Assembly: GCF_002154695.1 (NCBI RefSeq)
Contig: NZ_MTAV01000019.1
Location: forward strand, 1 to 64,000
Length of the DNA: 64,000 nucleotides
Direction of reading: 5' to 3'
DNA from: Nostoc sp. T09
Lineage (GTDB): Bacteria > Cyanobacteriota > Cyanobacteriia > Cyanobacteriales > Nostocaceae
In this document: positions 9,561 through 43,547 of the stretch, one piece after another
Layout of the letters: every line of letters begins with the position of its first letter
How positions within the stretch are numbered: the first letter of the stretch is position 1
Notes under the pieces: model-generated
Databases searched by the model: none
The model's input: only the letters and a program-made list of their open reading frames with translations
What the model was told of the DNA's origin: nothing
Program-made: the position numbers and the translations under genes

Positions 9561-12500
9561 ATGTGTCCACGTGGTGTTACTACCAGTCGCTCAACTCAAG
9601 CTAAACAAACAATTGCTCCGAAATTGTGGTTGTTACTTGTGGGTGTCAATCAATATCAGGATGAACAACTTCCTTCTCTACGTTATTCAGCAGTTGATTG
9701 CCAGGTATTAGCTGAGGCTTTAGCAGGTGCAACTAAGGAACAGTTTCCCCAAAGACAGGTAAAAATTTATCACGATTTTGCTAACCAGTTACCACTATTA
9801 GTAACTGTGCGCGAAAGTTTACGGCAAATTGCAGCTGATGCACAACCGATTGACACGATTTTATTCTATTTTTCCGGTCACGGAATGCTACAGCCAAATA
9901 CACAGGAAGCATTTTTGTGTTTGGCAGATACGCAAAAAGATAGTTTAGAAAATACTGGTTTACCTGTTAAAGAACTGTTGACACAGTTAAGTAAAAGTGG
10001 GGCGCAAAATCAGTTATTGTGGCTGGATGCTTGCCATAGTGGGGGGATGACTCTTAGGGGAGCCATAGCAGAGCCATTACTAAATCCTACTCCGCAATTG
10101 GTAGACGCTTTACAACGTAACGCTACAAAAGGTAAAGGTTTTTATGCATTGCTTTCTTGTGATGTTAATCAGCAATCTTGGGAGTTCCCTGAACTGGGGC
10201 ATGGGGTATTTACTTATTATTTAATGCGGGGTTTAAATGGTGATGCTGCTAATGCCCAAGGTGTAATTTTTGCTGATGAGCTTTATCGCTATGTTTATCA
10301 CCAGACGTTGCAATATATAGATAAAACCAATCAACAATTACGATTAATTAATCAGCAGAAGCGCGGCAAAGGTGACACTCAACTTTTTAGCGAGTATCCC
10401 CTGCAAACACCGAAGCGTATTGTCGAAGGAGTCGGGGAATTGCTTCTAGGCTCAATACCTGCAATCGCGCAATCACGCCCTTCAAGAATAGCACTGGTAA
10501 TTGAGGGATTTACTGGTTATCAGGCAACTCTAGATTTGAGTAAAGTCTTGGTTGGTGCTGGTGATTTCGAGTTGGAATATTTGCCTCGTTCAGGAGAAAC
10601 AACCGCTAAGGATATTCGGGCTGCAATTCAAGAATGTTTGGGTTCAGTAAATCAACAACGCCACGAAATAATTGAAGAAACCTCAACTGTATTTTTATAT
10701 TTACGCGGAAGTTTGGAAGAAACCCCGACTGGGGAAGCGGCATTATTAATATCAGAAGATATTTGGCTAAGCCGTTCTTGGCTAAGGCAACAATTACGCC
10801 GTTCACAAATTGCCCAACAAATCATTATCTTAGATTTTCCGGTAGTTGCAACTGCTGTTTCTTCTCTCCATGAGTGGGTAGAAGACTTACAGTTAGAATC
10901 GGAAAAAGGGCAATGTATTATCGCTGCCACTTCCCCAAAAGATAATTCGGAATTTTTTGCACAAACGCTGATCGAAACTTTAAAAAATGCTAATAACCCA
11001 GCAGGTTTATCTGTAGCTGGTTGGATTACTCAATTACAAGTTCAACTGGCATCACAAACACAAAATACCCCGTTTCTATCACTTAATTTTTGGCTATCAG
11101 GAACTCAAGGTGTAATTGAAATCATCCCTGCCACAACTGGCGCACGCAGTTATAAAAAAGCAGCATTAGATTTAAAAATTTGTCCTTACCGGGGATTAAG
11201 AGCTTTTGCTGAAGAAGATGCTCAATATTTTTTTGGCAGAGAATCTTTAACTCAGCATTTAATTAGTCAAATAGCGCATAAATCTTTCTTAGCTGTAGTG
11301 GGTGCTTCTGGTAGTGGTAAATCTTCTGTTGTGCAAGCGGGATTAATTGCCCAATTACGTCCAGGTAATTGTTTACCTGGAAGTGATTCTTGGTTAATTA
11401 AAAGTTTGCGTCCCGGTGCGCGTCCCTTGGAAGAGTTAGCGAGACGATTGGAGGAGGGAGGGGGAAGGGGACAAGGTAGTAATCTTTCTCCCTCATCCCC
11501 CCACACTCCCCACACTCCCTCCTCTCCTCCATCGCCCCAGCTTGTACTAGAGGGAATGCTATATCAGGGGGTGGAAGGCTTTGTCTACTGGTTGCGTAGC
11601 CGACCTGAGTCTGTGGTGGTTTTGGTGGTAGACCAGTTTGAGGAATTATTTACCCTTGCACCTATCGAAGATAGACAGCGGTTTTTAGAATTGGTGTTGG
11701 GAGCAATAGAATATGCTTCTGATAAGTTTAAATTAGTCATTACTTTGCGCGCAGATTTTATCGCTTCTTGTTTGGAAGTCTCTGCACTGGCGACTTTACT
11801 GCAAGAATTTAGCGTCTTAGTTCCGCCTCATCTGAGCGATCGCGATTATCGTCGTGTCATTATTAATCCAGCGGAACAAGTGAGTTTAAAAGTAGAGCCA
11901 GAATTGGTAGAAGTTCTGGTACAAGAGTTAAACCACTCGGCGGGGGATTTACCGCTGTTAGAATTCGTACTAGAGCAGTTGTGGGAATTCCGGCAAGAGG
12001 GAGAACTGACTCTAGCGGCGTATCAGCAACGAGTGGGTGGTATTAAGGGCGCGCTGGAACGTAAGGCCCAAGCAGTTTATGAAAGTTTAGATAGCCAAGC
12101 TCAAGATTGTGCGCGATGGATTTTTCTTTCTCTCACCCAATTAGGGGAGGGTACAGAAGATACTAGGCGCAGGGCATTGAAATCAGAGTTAGTAGTGCAA
12201 AAATATCCGGCGGCGTTGGTGGAAAGAACGCTGCAAGTGTTAACTGCTGCGAAGTTAGTGGTGGTGAATTTGGAAGAGGAGGGGGGGAGTAGGGGACAAA
12301 GAGACAAGGGAGACAGGGGGGACAAGGGGGATTCTGCGATCGCTTCTCTTCCTGCGTCGGCTGTGACTATTGAAGTGGCGCATGAAATTTTGATTCGCCA
12401 TTGGTCAACTTTGCGATGGTGGTTGGAGGAAAATCGTAGTAGGTTGCGATCGCAGCGTCAAATTGAACAAGCGGCAGCTTTGTGGAAATATAATCATGAG

Positions 12501-14858
12501 CAAGCTGATTTTTTGTTGCATGGTATCCGTTTAGCTGAGGCGGAAGAAATTTATGTTAAATATACAGAGGAATTATCTCAAGATGTTCAACTTTTTATTG
12601 CTGCTTGTTTAGAAGCAAGGCAACGACAACAAATTGAACAAAAAAAGCGACTCCGACAAGCTCAAAAAGCTGTTGCTGTTATTAGTGTATTAGGTATTGC
12701 TGCTAGTGGTTTTGGCGGTTTGGCTTATTTCCAAAAACAAGCGGCTCAGTTACGCGAAATTTCTGCTTTGAATGCCTCATCAGAAGCATTATTGTTATCA
12801 AATCAGCAACTTGAAGCTTTAATTGCGAGTGTGAAAGCTGGGCGAGAAATCAAGCAGGTATTTGCGCCAGCTAAAGATATACAATTAGCAACTGTAGCAA
12901 CTCTTCAGCAAGCTGTTGAGCAAACTCAAGAACTCAACCGCTTACAAGGTCACAGTCAACAAGTTAATGCTGTTACTTTTAGCTCCGATGGTAAAATTAT
13001 CGCTTCTACTAGCGATGATGGCACAATTAAATTTTGGAGTTACAATGGTAAATTAATCAATACTATTACTGATACTAAAAATAGATTTACATCTCTGTAT
13101 TTTAGTCCTGATAGTCAATTTATTGCGGCTGCGAGTACAGAGAAAAGCATTAAATTATATAACATCAATTTGGCAAATTGCCCGCAGGCTAGAAGCCTGG
13201 GGCTACATAAACAAAGCCTGCCTTCGCAGGCTGAGATATCTGCTATAAATGGGAAATGTTACCCATTAATTAAGAGTTTCACAGGACATAATGATATTGT
13301 CAGCAATGTAGTTTTTAGTCCCGATGGGAAGACGCTTGTTTCTGTTAGTCGAGATAAAACTATAAAGTTATGGCGCATTGATGGCAGTTTAATTAAAACC
13401 TGGAATGCCCATAATGGCTGGGTGAATACTGTTAGCTTTAGCCCTGATGGTCAAGTTATTGCTTCTGGTGGTGAAGATAATTTAGTCAAGCTTTGGCAGA
13501 TTGCAGATGGTAAGTTACTGCAAACAATGACAGGGCATAAAGAACGGGTTACTTGTGTGAAATTTAGCCCTGATGGTCAAATTATTGCTTCTGCTAGCGG
13601 TGATAAAACTATCAAGTTTTGGAATCGTCAAGGCAAAATTTTACAAACTATTGAAGGTAATACAAATCAAATTAACAGTATCAGCTTTAGTCCAGATGGT
13701 CAATTAATTGCTGCTGGTGATGCTGATGCTATGTTGAAAATCTGGAATATTAAAAATAAATTAGGTATAGAATATAAAATCAAACAAAATTTGAGAGGGC
13801 ATGGCGCACAAATTAATCATATTAGCTTTAGCCCGTCAGGTAAAATTATTGCCTCTGCTAGCGTTGACAAAACCGTTAGGCTTTGGCGAGTAACTAATTC
13901 TAAACAAACCCAGGATGAAGGTAGTTTTTATAGTGTGAGTGTTAGTCCTGATAACAAGATGTTTGCTGCGGCTGGTTGGGACGGCACAATCAAAATATGG
14001 GAAAGTAATAGTAAATTTATAAAATCTATTTCAGGGAATAAACAGATAATTTATGCTGTGGATTTTAGCCCCAATAGTAAAATTATAGCTAATGCAAGTG
14101 ATGATAAAACAATTAAATTATGGAATATAACCAATAGTTCTCTACTTCAGACACTAATAGGACATACAGCGCGAGTAACTAGCATTATTTTTAGTCCCGA
14201 TGGTAAAATGCTAGCTTCTGGTAGTGCCGATAAAACTATTAAGTTATGGCAAATTGTAGATGGAAAATTACTACAAACTTTCAAAGGACATACTGATGAA
14301 ATAACCAGCGTTAGTTTTAGTATTGATGGTAAAATGCTGGCTTCTAGCAGTTACGATAATACTGTCAAAGTTTGGAAACTTGATGGTAGTCTTGTCAGAA
14401 GTTTGCAAGGAAATGGACTGGCGATCGCATCTGTAAAATTCAGTCCAGATAACACAATTCTCGCTACTGCTAGTTTGGACAACAATATCAAAATTTGGAA
14501 CGTCGCCGACGGAACTTTAATCAATACCCTTGCAGGACATACCGACGGCGTAACTAGTTTGAGTTTTCTACCAAATAGTCAAATACTAGCTTCTGGCAGC
14601 GCTGACGGTACAATTAAGCTGTGGAATATCAGCGAGCGCACTTTACTAAAAACTCTATTGGGTCATCCTGGGAAAGTGAATAGCATCAGCTTCAGTCCCG
14701 ATGGTAAGACGCTGATTAGTGCAGGTGAGGATACTGGGGTAAAGCTGTGGAATTTAGATTTAGACGATCTGAAGCGGCACGGATGCTTACAAATCAAAGA
14801 TTATCTGCAAAATAATCCCAATGTAAGCGAGAGCGATCGCAATATCTGCAAAGATTGA
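9561..14858 (+). CDS. Caspase-domain / STAND NTPase / WD40 repeat protein
   Basis: Giant 1765-residue signalling protein. Residues 20-270 form a C14 caspase (metacaspase-like) domain with catalytic His107 in FYFSGHGML and Cys158 in LDACHSGG. Residues about 305-525 look like a second caspase-like fold without catalytic residues (LYLRGSLEE and ILDFPVVA at the equivalent places). Residues about 541-1000 are a STAND-type NTPase: CPYRGLRAF lead-in, P-loop GASGSGKSS (581-589), Walker [11 protein letters not shown]. One membrane helix lies near 1036-1057, then about 14 WD40 repeats (1127-1735) with repeated FSPDGK and KLWN motifs. The architecture is that of NLR-like sensor proteins: WD40 binds a trigger, STAND oligomerises, caspase is the effector. 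The start is supported by the paralogue at 41319, which begins with the same MCP-GV-TS pattern. Three repeat-derived segments lie inside the frame. Immune or cell-death function is inferred. Confidence 0.9.
11451..11541 (+). repeat. In-frame purine- then pyrimidine-rich low-complexity insert in the STAND domain
   Basis: Codons for residues about 631-660 of the caspase-STAND protein read as gagggagggggaaggggac followed by a C/T-rich tract with ccccccacactcccc. They encode a Gly- then Ser/Pro/Thr/His-rich linker between the P-loop and Walker B. The composition matches dispersed intergenic repeats of Nostocales rather than the surrounding gene, and it keeps the frame. Confidence 0.7.
12276..12341 (+). 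repeat. In-frame G/A-rich low-complexity insert in the STAND domain
   Basis: Codons for residues about 906-927 are almost pure G/A (gaggaggggg, gacaagggagacagg) and encode [18 protein letters not shown], a charged glycine linker. It falls between two helical segments (VVVNLEE and [10 protein letters not shown]). The sequence style is that of intergenic GGGGACAAGGGGGA-type repeats, again carried without breaking the frame. Confidence 0.65.
13183..13232 (+). repeat. In-frame copy of a palindromic dispersed repeat within the WD40 region
   Basis: This segment contains caggctagaagcctg and the hairpin agcctgccttcgcaggct, joined by gggctacataaacaa. It encodes residues about 1208-1224 and disrupts the spacing between two WD40 blades. 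A diverged copy of the same element, in the opposite orientation, lies in intergenic DNA at about 52261-52306, which shows that it is a dispersed repeat and not native WD40 sequence. Confidence 0.75.
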
Positions 14859-41318: not shown

Positions 41319-43547
41319 ATGTGTCCAGTTGGGGTTCGTACTAGTCACTCAACTCATGCCCTTGAAACCGGTGTAGCAAAACTATGGCTATTACTGGTGG
41401 GCGTGAATCAATATGAGGATGAACAAATACCTTGTTTGCATTACTCAGCATTGGACTGTCAAGGTTTAGGAGAAGCATTAAACGCCGCAACACAGGCTTT
41501 TCCGCAAAAGGAGGTGATGATTTACCACGATTTCGCCTCCCAACAGCCAAAGTTAGAAAATGTTCTTACTAGCCTCAGACAAATCGCCGCTGCTACTAAA
41601 CCCATTGACACTGTTCTATTTTATTTTTCAGGACATGGGATGCTAGATCCATTGAGTCAGCAAGTGGTGCTGTGTCTTCAAGATACTCAAAAAGAAAAAT
41701 TAATAGACACTGGTTTAAAGTTGCAGGAAGTTTTGCAACTTTTAGAGAGTTGTTCTGCCCAGCAGCAACTAGTTGTATTAGATGCTTGTCATAGCGGTGG
41801 GATGACGCTGTTAGGTGCTAGAGGAGAAACAGATGCCCAACTTAACCCTACACTAGAGTTGGTGGAAGTTCTGCGACAACGAGCCGTCCAGAGAAAAGGA
41901 TTTTATGCGTTATTATCTTGCGATCGCGGACAGCAATCTTGGGAATTTCCCCAATTGGGACATGGCGTATTCACATACTATTTAATTCAAGGACTAAAAG
42001 GAGAAGCAGCTGACTCCCAAGGCGTGATCGAAGCTGATGGGCTTTACCGCTATGTTTATCACCAAACGCTGACATATATAGATAAAGCTAATCAACAGTT
42101 GCGAGTCATTAATCAACTCAAAAAAGGACGAGGGGACAATTCAATACATTCCGAATATCCCTCACAAACGCCTAAGCGTATTGTCGAAGGAGTAGGAGAA
42201 GTAATTTTGGGACTGAAATCCAAAAAAATAGAATCTACTCAACATCCGCGACAAGCATTGGTTGTAGAAGGACTTGCCAAGAGTAAAACTTCTTTAGCTT
42301 TGAGCAAAATACTTAGCACTGCTGGTAGTTTTGAAGTCAATTATTGGACTGTGCGCGGCAAAAATCCACAGTCAGATGTGCGTAAAGCCATCCAAAAGTG
42401 CTTGCTATCTCAATCTTTTACGGAATCAACCAATACCGCAGAAGCAGCCGCAACAGTATTGTTATATCTGCGAGGGCAAATTCAAGAGACAGAACAGGGA
42501 GAAGCGGTATTAGTTCTGTCTGATGATATTGTCATCCATCGCTCATGGTTGAGAAAACAGCTACGCCGATGCCGATCGCAACAAATTATCGTTTTAGATT
42601 GTCCGGTAGAACAAGGTGTCGGGAACGTATCGGTACGTGATTGGACCGAAGAACTCCAACTAGGATTAGACACAGGACAGTGTTTAATTACCGCTGCTGT
42701 ACCACCTCACGAGAGTGAAAGATTTGCCACTATCCTTTTAGAAACTCTCAACCAAGGAACGCAGCGAACTGGACTCACCGCAGCAGGTTGGATTACACAA
42801 TTGCAAATGCAATTGGCACAAACCGACATCAATTTCTATTTTTGGTTGTCTGGATCTCAAGGAATCATTGAAGTCTTACCAGGAAAAACCCTATTTGCTG
42901 GTGATAGTTTAAATGAACAGCCTGAAGATGCTAGCAGTCCTACTCTTGATGATTTGAGTTCTGAGGTAGGGATAGATTACACTCATCTGCGGGATTTACT
43001 CCAAGCCCAAAGATGGCTGGAGGCGGATCAAGAAACTACAACTCTCATGTTGAAGGTAGCCGGGCGAGAACAACAGCGCTACCTGGATCTCGACAGCCTT
43101 AAAAATTTTATTTGTAAAGATCTTTATACTATTAACCATCTTTGGGTAAGTTATAGTCATGGGCGCTTCGGTTTTAGCGTCCAGCACCGTATCTGGCAGA
43201 GTATGAAAGGTAATTCTGCTACTGACCCTGTATTAGCTTTGATGATTGGTAGCGCCAAAGTCGCTGCTTCAGAAACCTGTATTGATTTTGTCAATCGTGT
43301 TGGTTGGCGTCTGAAAGACTCTTGGGTTGATTATGACAATCTCATTTGGCAAGGAGAAGCCCCCATAGGACATTTACCTTATGTCGGTTTTATTGAACAG
43401 GCTTGGCGTGTCAAAGTTCTAGGTGTGTGGGAGTGGCATAGTGCGATCGCAACTGCTTCTTGGTGGGAATTGTGCGTGACTCTATTCTCGCGTCTTGAGA
43501 CTTGTAAAATTGTGGATTCCATAGCAGATGATTTTAACCCTGATTGA
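41319..43547 (+). CDS. Caspase-domain protein with C-terminal GUN4 domain
   Basis: 742 residues. Residues 20-275 are a caspase (C14) domain with His106 in FYFSGHGML and Cys157 in LDACHSGG. Residues about 310-522 match the second, catalytically dead caspase-like region of the 9561 paralogue (LYLRGQIQE; VLDCPVEQG). Residues about 550-735 are a GUN4 domain: DYTHLRDLLQAQRWLEADQE, LKVAGREQQRYLDLDSL, LWVSYSHGRFGFSVQHRIWQ. GUN4 binds porphyrins and stimulates Mg-chelatase, so this protein may couple tetrapyrrole or light-stress state to proteolysis (inference). No WD40 or STAND part. The start matches that of the paralogue. No clear ribosome-binding site. Confidence 0.9.
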   Translation: MCPVGVRTSHSTHALETGVAKLWLLLVGVNQYEDEQIPCLHYSALDCQGLGEALNAATQAFPQKEVMIYHDFASQQPKLENVLTSLRQIAAATKPIDTVLFYFSGHGMLDPLSQQVVLCLQDTQKEKLIDTGLKLQEVLQLLESCSAQQQLVVLDACHSGGMTLLGARGETDAQLNPTLELVEVLRQRAVQRKGFYALLSCDRGQQSWEFPQLGHGVFTYYLIQGLKGEAADSQGVIEADGLYRYVYHQTLTYIDKANQQLRVINQLKKGRGDNSIHSEYPSQTPKRIVEGVGEVILGLKSKKIESTQHPRQALVVEGLAKSKTSLALSKILSTAGSFEVNYWTVRGKNPQSDVRKAIQKCLLSQSFTESTNTAEAAATVLLYLRGQIQETEQGEAVLVLSDDIVIHRSWLRKQLRRCRSQQIIVLDCPVEQGVGNVSVRDWTEELQLGLDTGQCLITAAVPPHESERFATILLETLNQGTQRTGLTAAGWITQLQMQLAQTDINFYFWLSGSQGIIEVLPGKTLFAGDSLNEQPEDASSPTLDDLSSEVGIDYTHLRDLLQAQRWLEADQETTTLMLKVAGREQQRYLDLDSLKNFICKDLYTINHLWVSYSHGRFGFSVQHRIWQSMKGNSATDPVLALMIGSAKVAASETCIDFVNRVGWRLKDSWVDYDNLIWQGEAPIGHLPYVGFIEQAWRVKVLGVWEWHSAIATASWWELCVTLFSRLETCKIVDSIADDFNPD

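Follow-up and report, generated by a model that had tools for sequence, protein, structure and literature searches.

Excerpts of the published record describe several caspase arrangements close to the one reported here. Cyanobacterial caspase homologues (orthocaspases) bearing WD40 repeats or a GUN4 domain have been surveyed (PMC2853523, PMC3501461, PMC8283722, PMC5756287), and a published table places both among the commonest accessory domains of these proteins. Cyanobacterial pseudo-orthocaspases have a recognisable p20, with YS and YN as the commonest variants (PMC6426788, PMC8283722). In FLIP(L), the dead partner of caspase-8, the dyad became Arg and Tyr (PMC7586951); for coral caspase-X, the active domain alone killed more effectively than the whole protein (PMC4715348); and a CHAT1–CHAT2 pairing is described for Csx29/TPR-CHAT of craspase and for separase (PMC10028731, PMC9729208). 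The EACC1 and EACC2 systems join a constant N-terminal caspase to highly variable C-terminal modules (PMC7159879, PMC8195603). Here we report on two genes, WinA and WinB, in a 64,000-nucleotide stretch of Nostoc sp. T09 (positions 1 to 64,000 of contig NZ_MTAV01000019.1, part of an 8.25-Mb genome; hereafter the window), both of which encode a caspase domain whose catalytic dyad is intact and, further along the same chain, a second, degenerate caspase domain.

WinA (9561..14858, forward strand, as are all features below; 1,765 residues) encodes, by its open reading frame (ORF) and Pfam matches, an active caspase, a pseudo-caspase, an nSTAND1 domain and WD40 propellers, and WinB (41319..43547; 742 residues) an active caspase, a pseudo-caspase and a GUN4 domain. 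The two proteins share 57% identity across their first 531 residues and diverge afterwards. Their first domains, which are among 14 matches to the Pfam caspase family in the genome, were recognised in WinA at residues 18–302 (9612..10466; PF00656, 54.6 bits, cut-off 21.4; limits from the alignment of first domains) and in WinB at 41370..42227 (64.6 bits, same cut-off). As the original prediction had proposed, WinA carries FYFSGHG at residue 102, with His107 (9879..9881), and LDACHSG at residue 155, with Cys158 (10032..10034); the motifs and the family alignment place the WinB counterparts at His106 (41634..41636) and Cys157 (41787..41789). Both residues are present in 114 of 114 members of the family described below, giving a p20 with a His–Cys dyad, as in Peptidase C14 and the orthocaspases. 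The first domain is a protease domain with an intact dyad and predicted activity.

The second domain occupies residues 303–530 of WinA (10467..11150; hhalign, AlphaFold2 with Foldseek, profile search) and 304–528 of WinB (42228..42902), delimited by the same evidence, the fold of the WinB domain itself being predicted solely in a poor two-domain model. Both catalytic positions are lost: in WinA, LYLRG at residue 379 leads to Ser384 (10710..10712) in place of His, and LDFPV at residue 424 holds Pro427 (10839..10841) in place of Cys; in WinB, motif and family alignment give Gln387 (42477..42479) and Pro429 (42603..42605). These substitutions had been read correctly, and the offset between first- and second-domain motifs in WinA, put at about 275 residues, is 277. 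The recurrence of the motifs likewise stood; their 'same spacing' is merely approximate, because His and Cys lie 51 residues apart in the active domain and the replaced positions 43 (WinA) or 42 (WinB).

The kinship of the two domains is visible through profiles alone, because simpler searches were blank. Self-BLASTP of WinA and of WinB found no internal repeat, and neither second domain (about 225 residues) matched a Pfam family at E ≤ 1. Across 71 second domains, PF00656 was absent among the best 25 of 46 Pfam families and the Pfam Peptidase_C14 cut-off was not reached; DUF3606, the widest of the scattered hits (8 of 71 members, best E 0.03), was taken as chance. We compared alignments. The first domains came from 74 sequences, including the two from the window, after removal of L043 and L044 (duplicates of L045 and L047), L095 (partial) and L118 (stops); the second-domain alignment held 71 of these, L052, L113 and L116 being excluded for longer second domains. 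With hhalign, second domains matched first domains at 88% probability (E 3e-6, score 47.6, 74 columns), and in the opposite direction at 89% (E 2.1e-6, score 48.0), whereas none of 200 column-shuffled versions exceeded 27.1 and the reversed alignment reached 18.7. The alignment pairs TVLLYLRG with TILFYFSG and QIIILD with QLVWLD, the register already given in the original prediction. In addition, the first-domain profile touches the second domain of WinB weakly (independent E 0.059).

Next, the second-domain profile was run on 388 genomes of the class, with at most seven candidates scored per genome, so that absences are weak evidence. It matched at E ≤ 0.001 in 139 of the 388 genomes, and strongly (E below 1e-20) in 54 among the matches listed. 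From the weak matches outside the family 20 were fetched, and the first-domain profile identifies each of them as the caspase domain of another protein, with the second-domain profile sitting on that same caspase domain in every case (local E 1e-12 to 1e-6). These foreign domains are active-type orthocaspase domains: all 20 retain the catalytic Cys, and 19 retain the His. When 72 ORFs, taken from the window and from some loci, were ranked, hhalign likewise placed caspase domains directly after the family itself, led by three further caspases of this genome. A search of PDB sequences with the second-domain profile returned no match, and none of 293 pattern matches in viral contigs was confirmed.

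The predicted structure agrees with the profiles. An AlphaFold2 model of the WinA second domain, built from four sequences, reached modest confidence (predicted local distance difference test (pLDDT) 68; predicted template modelling score (pTM) 0.75), and its strand–helix order can be read as caspase-type. The top 14 Foldseek matches in the PDB were all caspase, metacaspase or MALT1, led by metacaspase 9, MALT1, caspase-9, procaspase-3 and CED-3, and 19 of the 23 matches at E ≤ 0.001 belong to that family. Weaker matches include mGlu2, PurE and WrbA, as might be expected if two Rossmann-like alpha/beta domains merely resembled each other without common descent; with caspases leading the structural ranking and making up 20 of 20 fetched profile matches, we regard such a coincidence as extremely improbable. 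Together, the profile–profile score, the 388-genome search and the predicted fold confirmed the second domain of WinA and WinB as a degenerate caspase domain, and the predicted tandem of active and pseudo-caspase is upheld by both checks that had been named for it, the modelled fold and the profile match to the first domain.

The loss of the dyad is a family trait. We fetched 114 members (74, and 40 added later), a portion of all profile matches; the closest named relative of the second domain is from Nostoc sp. 106C (92% identity). In no member does the second domain hold both dyad residues together. At the His position, His occurs in 4 of the 114, Arg in 50, Gln in 22 and Lys in 15, and at the Cys position Cys occurs once and Pro in 85. 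Many second domains read LDCP, because the residue preceding the lost Cys is itself Cys (93 of 114); it aligns with the non-catalytic Cys of LDCC-type caspases. Stop-interrupted second-domain copies were seen in two relatives (G049:C341:21351-21995, which is L118, and G023:C1:2674339-2674605) and are decayed genes or sequence errors.

Although dead, the domain appears constrained. For six gene pairs, the ratio of nonsynonymous to synonymous substitution rates (dN/dS), computed with our own script, was 0.15–0.19 for the second domain and 0.04–0.08 for the first; by this sequence measure the second domain is under purifying selection. Its mean identity is 43%, compared with 61% for the active domain, so that it evolves faster, and its best conserved stretches include WLSGxQGVIE. 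Conservation combined with faster change is what a binding surface might show, and pseudo-orthocaspase models are reported to fit basic substrates (PMC6426788). The dead domain might thus be a substrate-recruiting exosite, whose old substrate face binds targets and presents them to the active domain without controlling its activity. The best conserved stretches resemble surfaces no more than they do core strands and helices, and we think this role unlikely.

The second domain is co-inherited with the active one: in all 114 members an active caspase of the same type as the first domain of WinA and WinB (A2-type) lies in the same protein. What follows the pair varies. Past the shared module, WinA continues with an nSTAND1 nucleoside-triphosphatase domain (residues 542–982, 11184..12506; PF20703, E 3.5e-121, and own-genome search) and 14 stretches of WD40 repeats (12948..14795, outer limits approximate; PF00400), and WinB with a GUN4 domain (residues 548–699, 42960..43415; PF05419, E 2.3e-42). 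Classed by BLAST with the modules of the window, the 114 C-termini comprise 82 with nSTAND1 (75 with WD40 and 7 alone, several of the latter from short reading frames that lie at the end of a contig or stretch), 13 with GUN4 and 19 with neither. These 19 (L075, L079, L084, L086, L087, L089, L090, L097, L099, L105, L109, L110, L180, L182, L187, L188, L189, L193 and L202) carry, by eye, a helical-looking repeated segment with (I/V)GPIA or a near motif, a third and unnamed module; no Pfam family matched in the two of the 19 that were scanned. As a separate observation, the nSTAND1 region of WinA contains low-complexity stretches at 11457-11540 (Gly/Ser/Pro-rich) and 12282-12353 (Arg/Gly/Asp/Lys-rich), both differing in length and sequence across five close homologues; BLASTN found no second DNA copy of either within the window.

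These observations allow us to propose a role for the second domain. We consider it rather likely that both genes encode a live caspase with a dead caspase-fold regulatory partner in the same chain, the two forming a constant module with exchangeable C-termini that originated when a new caspase was set in front of an older one. A regulatory role, which the original prediction had put as possible control of dimerisation or substrate choice, is suggested because the dead domain follows the caspase across three kinds of C-terminus, because selection holds it and because known systems pair dead and live caspases. The caspase pair would be a constant effector module joined to nSTAND1–WD40, GUN4 or the helical GPIA repeat. 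The dead domain would pack on the active domain, in the manner of FLIP(L) on caspase-8 or of CHAT1 next to CHAT2, and the active domain would be held off, or misshapen, until a C-terminal sensor fires; the C-terminal module would sense something and act via the dead domain. Contact between the domains, control of activity and a sensor function of the C-terminal modules are thus what the arrangement leads us to expect. If the dead domain is such a partner, no second molecule would be needed for dimerisation, which matters for understanding how orthocaspases stay inactive and become activated.

As to its origin, the dead domain probably did not arise by copying of the first domain; it looks closer to the LDCCxSG orthocaspase subfamily that precedes nSTAND1. 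Probably a new DACHSG-type caspase was placed before a caspase–nSTAND1–WD40 protein, whose own caspase would then have died, losing its catalytic residues yet being retained. Ten foreign caspases displayed from the 20 fetched have LDCC(Y/H/N)SG instead of DACHSG; in 19 of 20 a match to the WinA nSTAND1 lies C-terminal of the caspase, and a Pfam scan of five gave four with nSTAND1 and one with NB-ARC. By eye, the caspase ends and linkers of the foreign proteins (such as SSGSEIILT ... CPYRGL) resemble those of WinA (... CPYRGL). In a careful 58-row caspase tree, whose LDCCxSG comparison rows were chosen by similarity to the second-domain profile, second domains join the LDCCxSG caspases at 99/88, and first and second domains as one clade are rejected (approximately unbiased (AU) test, p 0.006). 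A quick 102-row tree, for which 37 members were drawn from the family of 114 and 8 caspases from the genome's 12 others, gave a different answer: the joint clade was not rejected, its likelihood being 30.8 higher (AU p 0.83). The 58-row tree included 16 of those 37 members and left out two rows with long branches, ORT_L152 and one caspase of the genome.

Given this conflict between the tree tests, we retained the alternative that the dead domain is an internal duplicate of the active domain in front of it. The 102-row tree favours it, as does the match of the second-domain profile to the active domain in 7 of the 40 later members. The profile nevertheless prefers foreign caspases (E to 1e-12) to the first domains of the window (best E 0.006), the caspase–nSTAND1 order is identical in the relatives, and the 58-row tree speaks against duplication, which we judge a real contender, if rather an unlikely one. 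The nSTAND1 domains do not decide: outside the family their best BLAST matches are the foreign caspase proteins (up to 42% identity, compared with 34% for the best other), and in the nSTAND1 tree a single unresolved fork unites the family with the foreign caspase proteins and with two further nSTAND1 proteins of the genome, for which reason the tree was dropped as support for the origin. The LDC residue pattern was also weakened as proof of LDCCxSG descent, DCCFSG occurring in four other caspases of the genome. An insertion of a catalytic domain before an old one would be an origin different from simple duplication.

Several results weigh against the reading of the dead domain as a regulatory partner derived from an older caspase, among them the 102-row tree, the choice of comparison rows and the nSTAND1 fork. 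Template modelling scores of the second-domain model to PDB caspases are just 0.43–0.57, and the Foldseek match with the best E value superposes poorly (root-mean-square deviation 17.4). The AlphaFold2 model of both domains is poor (pLDDT 55, pTM 0.44), and at this low confidence no interface between them is seen. In the 72-ORF ranking, HMMER put a non-caspase ORF (E 0.01) just above the other caspases of the genome (E ≥ 0.016); the HMMER signal is therefore weak at this depth, and it is the 388-genome search that carries weight. The distance matrices of the two domains correlate (r 0.83, with 0 of 1,000 permutations as high): the second domain evolves in step with the first, which speaks for a partnership, but location in the same gene raises such a correlation without any contact.

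Moreover, the second domain is dispensable in places: a profile search at full sensitivity found none in at least 20 active domains of this type. These came from a further search, with at most six candidates scored per genome, and were fetched because the 388-genome search listed no second domain there. In the first-domain tree, much of it unresolved, 10 of the 20 are nested inside the group that bears second domains, a fork with two such members standing at 96/91, which suggests loss in some lines. The idea that the active domain strictly requires the dead one is thereby ruled out. Five of seven scanned caspases without the dead domain bear WD40 repeats, as could be expected were that domain a structural leftover or spacer with no part in control. 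The low dN/dS of the second domain, its near-invariant residue set across 114 genes and its retention where GUN4 or GPIA repeats replace nSTAND1 argue otherwise, and we hold a mere spacer to be quite improbable. Among caspases of this type, L243-L248 lack the dead caspase, with Pfam WD40 in the four scanned of the six, and L243 and L248 have a hydrophobic, possibly membrane-spanning stretch between caspase and WD40.

With the regulatory partner as the favoured reading, a wider one, possible but doubtful, would see WinA as a one-chain bacterial counterpart of the apoptosome plus FLIP, arrived at independently of animals when a new caspase was set before an old one, in which the caspase pair is the gate, STAND the switch and WD40 the sensor, and which is reused with tetrapyrrole-type (GUN4) and GPIA sensors. 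The domain between caspase and C-terminal module in such proteins is invisible to Pfam, and the annotation of three related cyanobacterial plasmid records reads simply caspase-domain or caspase family protein. Searches of the open-licence literature listed, by title or abstract, no report of a second, dead caspase domain in such proteins, and the excerpts of the surveys cited above mention none. A same-chain dead caspase in WD40 and GUN4 orthocaspases would accordingly seem to be new, while dead caspases beside live ones are already known elsewhere.

Other classifications were tried on the two genes. PADLOC assigned its general caspase model to both, with a HEAT-ARM_XIII match in the WD40 region of WinA and a marginal mad3 match in the same gene. 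The GUN4 region of WinB (42960-43415) matches the end of the PADLOC model PD-T4-6 (E 1.1e-41, positions 297-449 of 450), which suggests a GUN4-like portion within this defence model. An anti-phage defence role was set aside, the PADLOC hits consisting of the general caspase model and matches in the WD40 and GUN4 regions, and no search of the window for defence genes having been made. For the EACC1 caspase model NF047832, WinA and WinB score 137.4 and 133.4 bits, near yet below the cut-off of 140. The nearest upstream same-strand ORFs of at least 100 residues, where an EACC1 upstream gene was looked for, have no Pfam or NCBIfam match, with no separate EACC1 profile run. No alpha+beta domain as in EACC2 precedes the caspase, which starts near residue 20, and neither an extracytoplasmic function (ECF) sigma factor nor DUF1822 is among the Pfam matches of eight neighbouring ORFs. 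Membership of EACC1 or EACC2 was rejected, as their features are absent or not shown.

Compared with these systems, the family shares with EACC1 and EACC2 a constant caspase near the N-terminus and variable C-termini; the EACC2 caspase has an alpha+beta domain in front of it, whereas the caspase of the family has the dead domain behind it. Pseudo-orthocaspases resemble the second domain in being cyanobacterial caspase-fold domains whose His and/or Cys is replaced. Unlike them, the dead domain of the WinA/WinB family shares its chain with an active one, carries mostly Arg, Gln or Lys with Pro, and is not seen by Pfam. Csx29 and separase have the reverse order, the active domain being first in WinA, WinB and the family, and Csx29 has a TPR region in place of STAND, WD40 or GUN4, with control by CRISPR target RNA. 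Coral caspase-X also combines inactive and active caspase domains in one chain; it differs in being an animal protein with the inactive domain first, and the available excerpt does not mention STAND, WD40 or GUN4. FLIP(L) places a dead caspase domain beside an active one, and Arg, found at the His position in FLIP(L), stands there in 50 of the 114 family members; it is a separate protein with death-effector domains, and the partnership is established for FLIP(L) and proposed for the family. If the proposal holds, WinA and WinB would join FLIP(L), coral caspase-X and the CHAT1–CHAT2 pair as a further example, here from a bacterium, of a dead caspase retained next to an active one.

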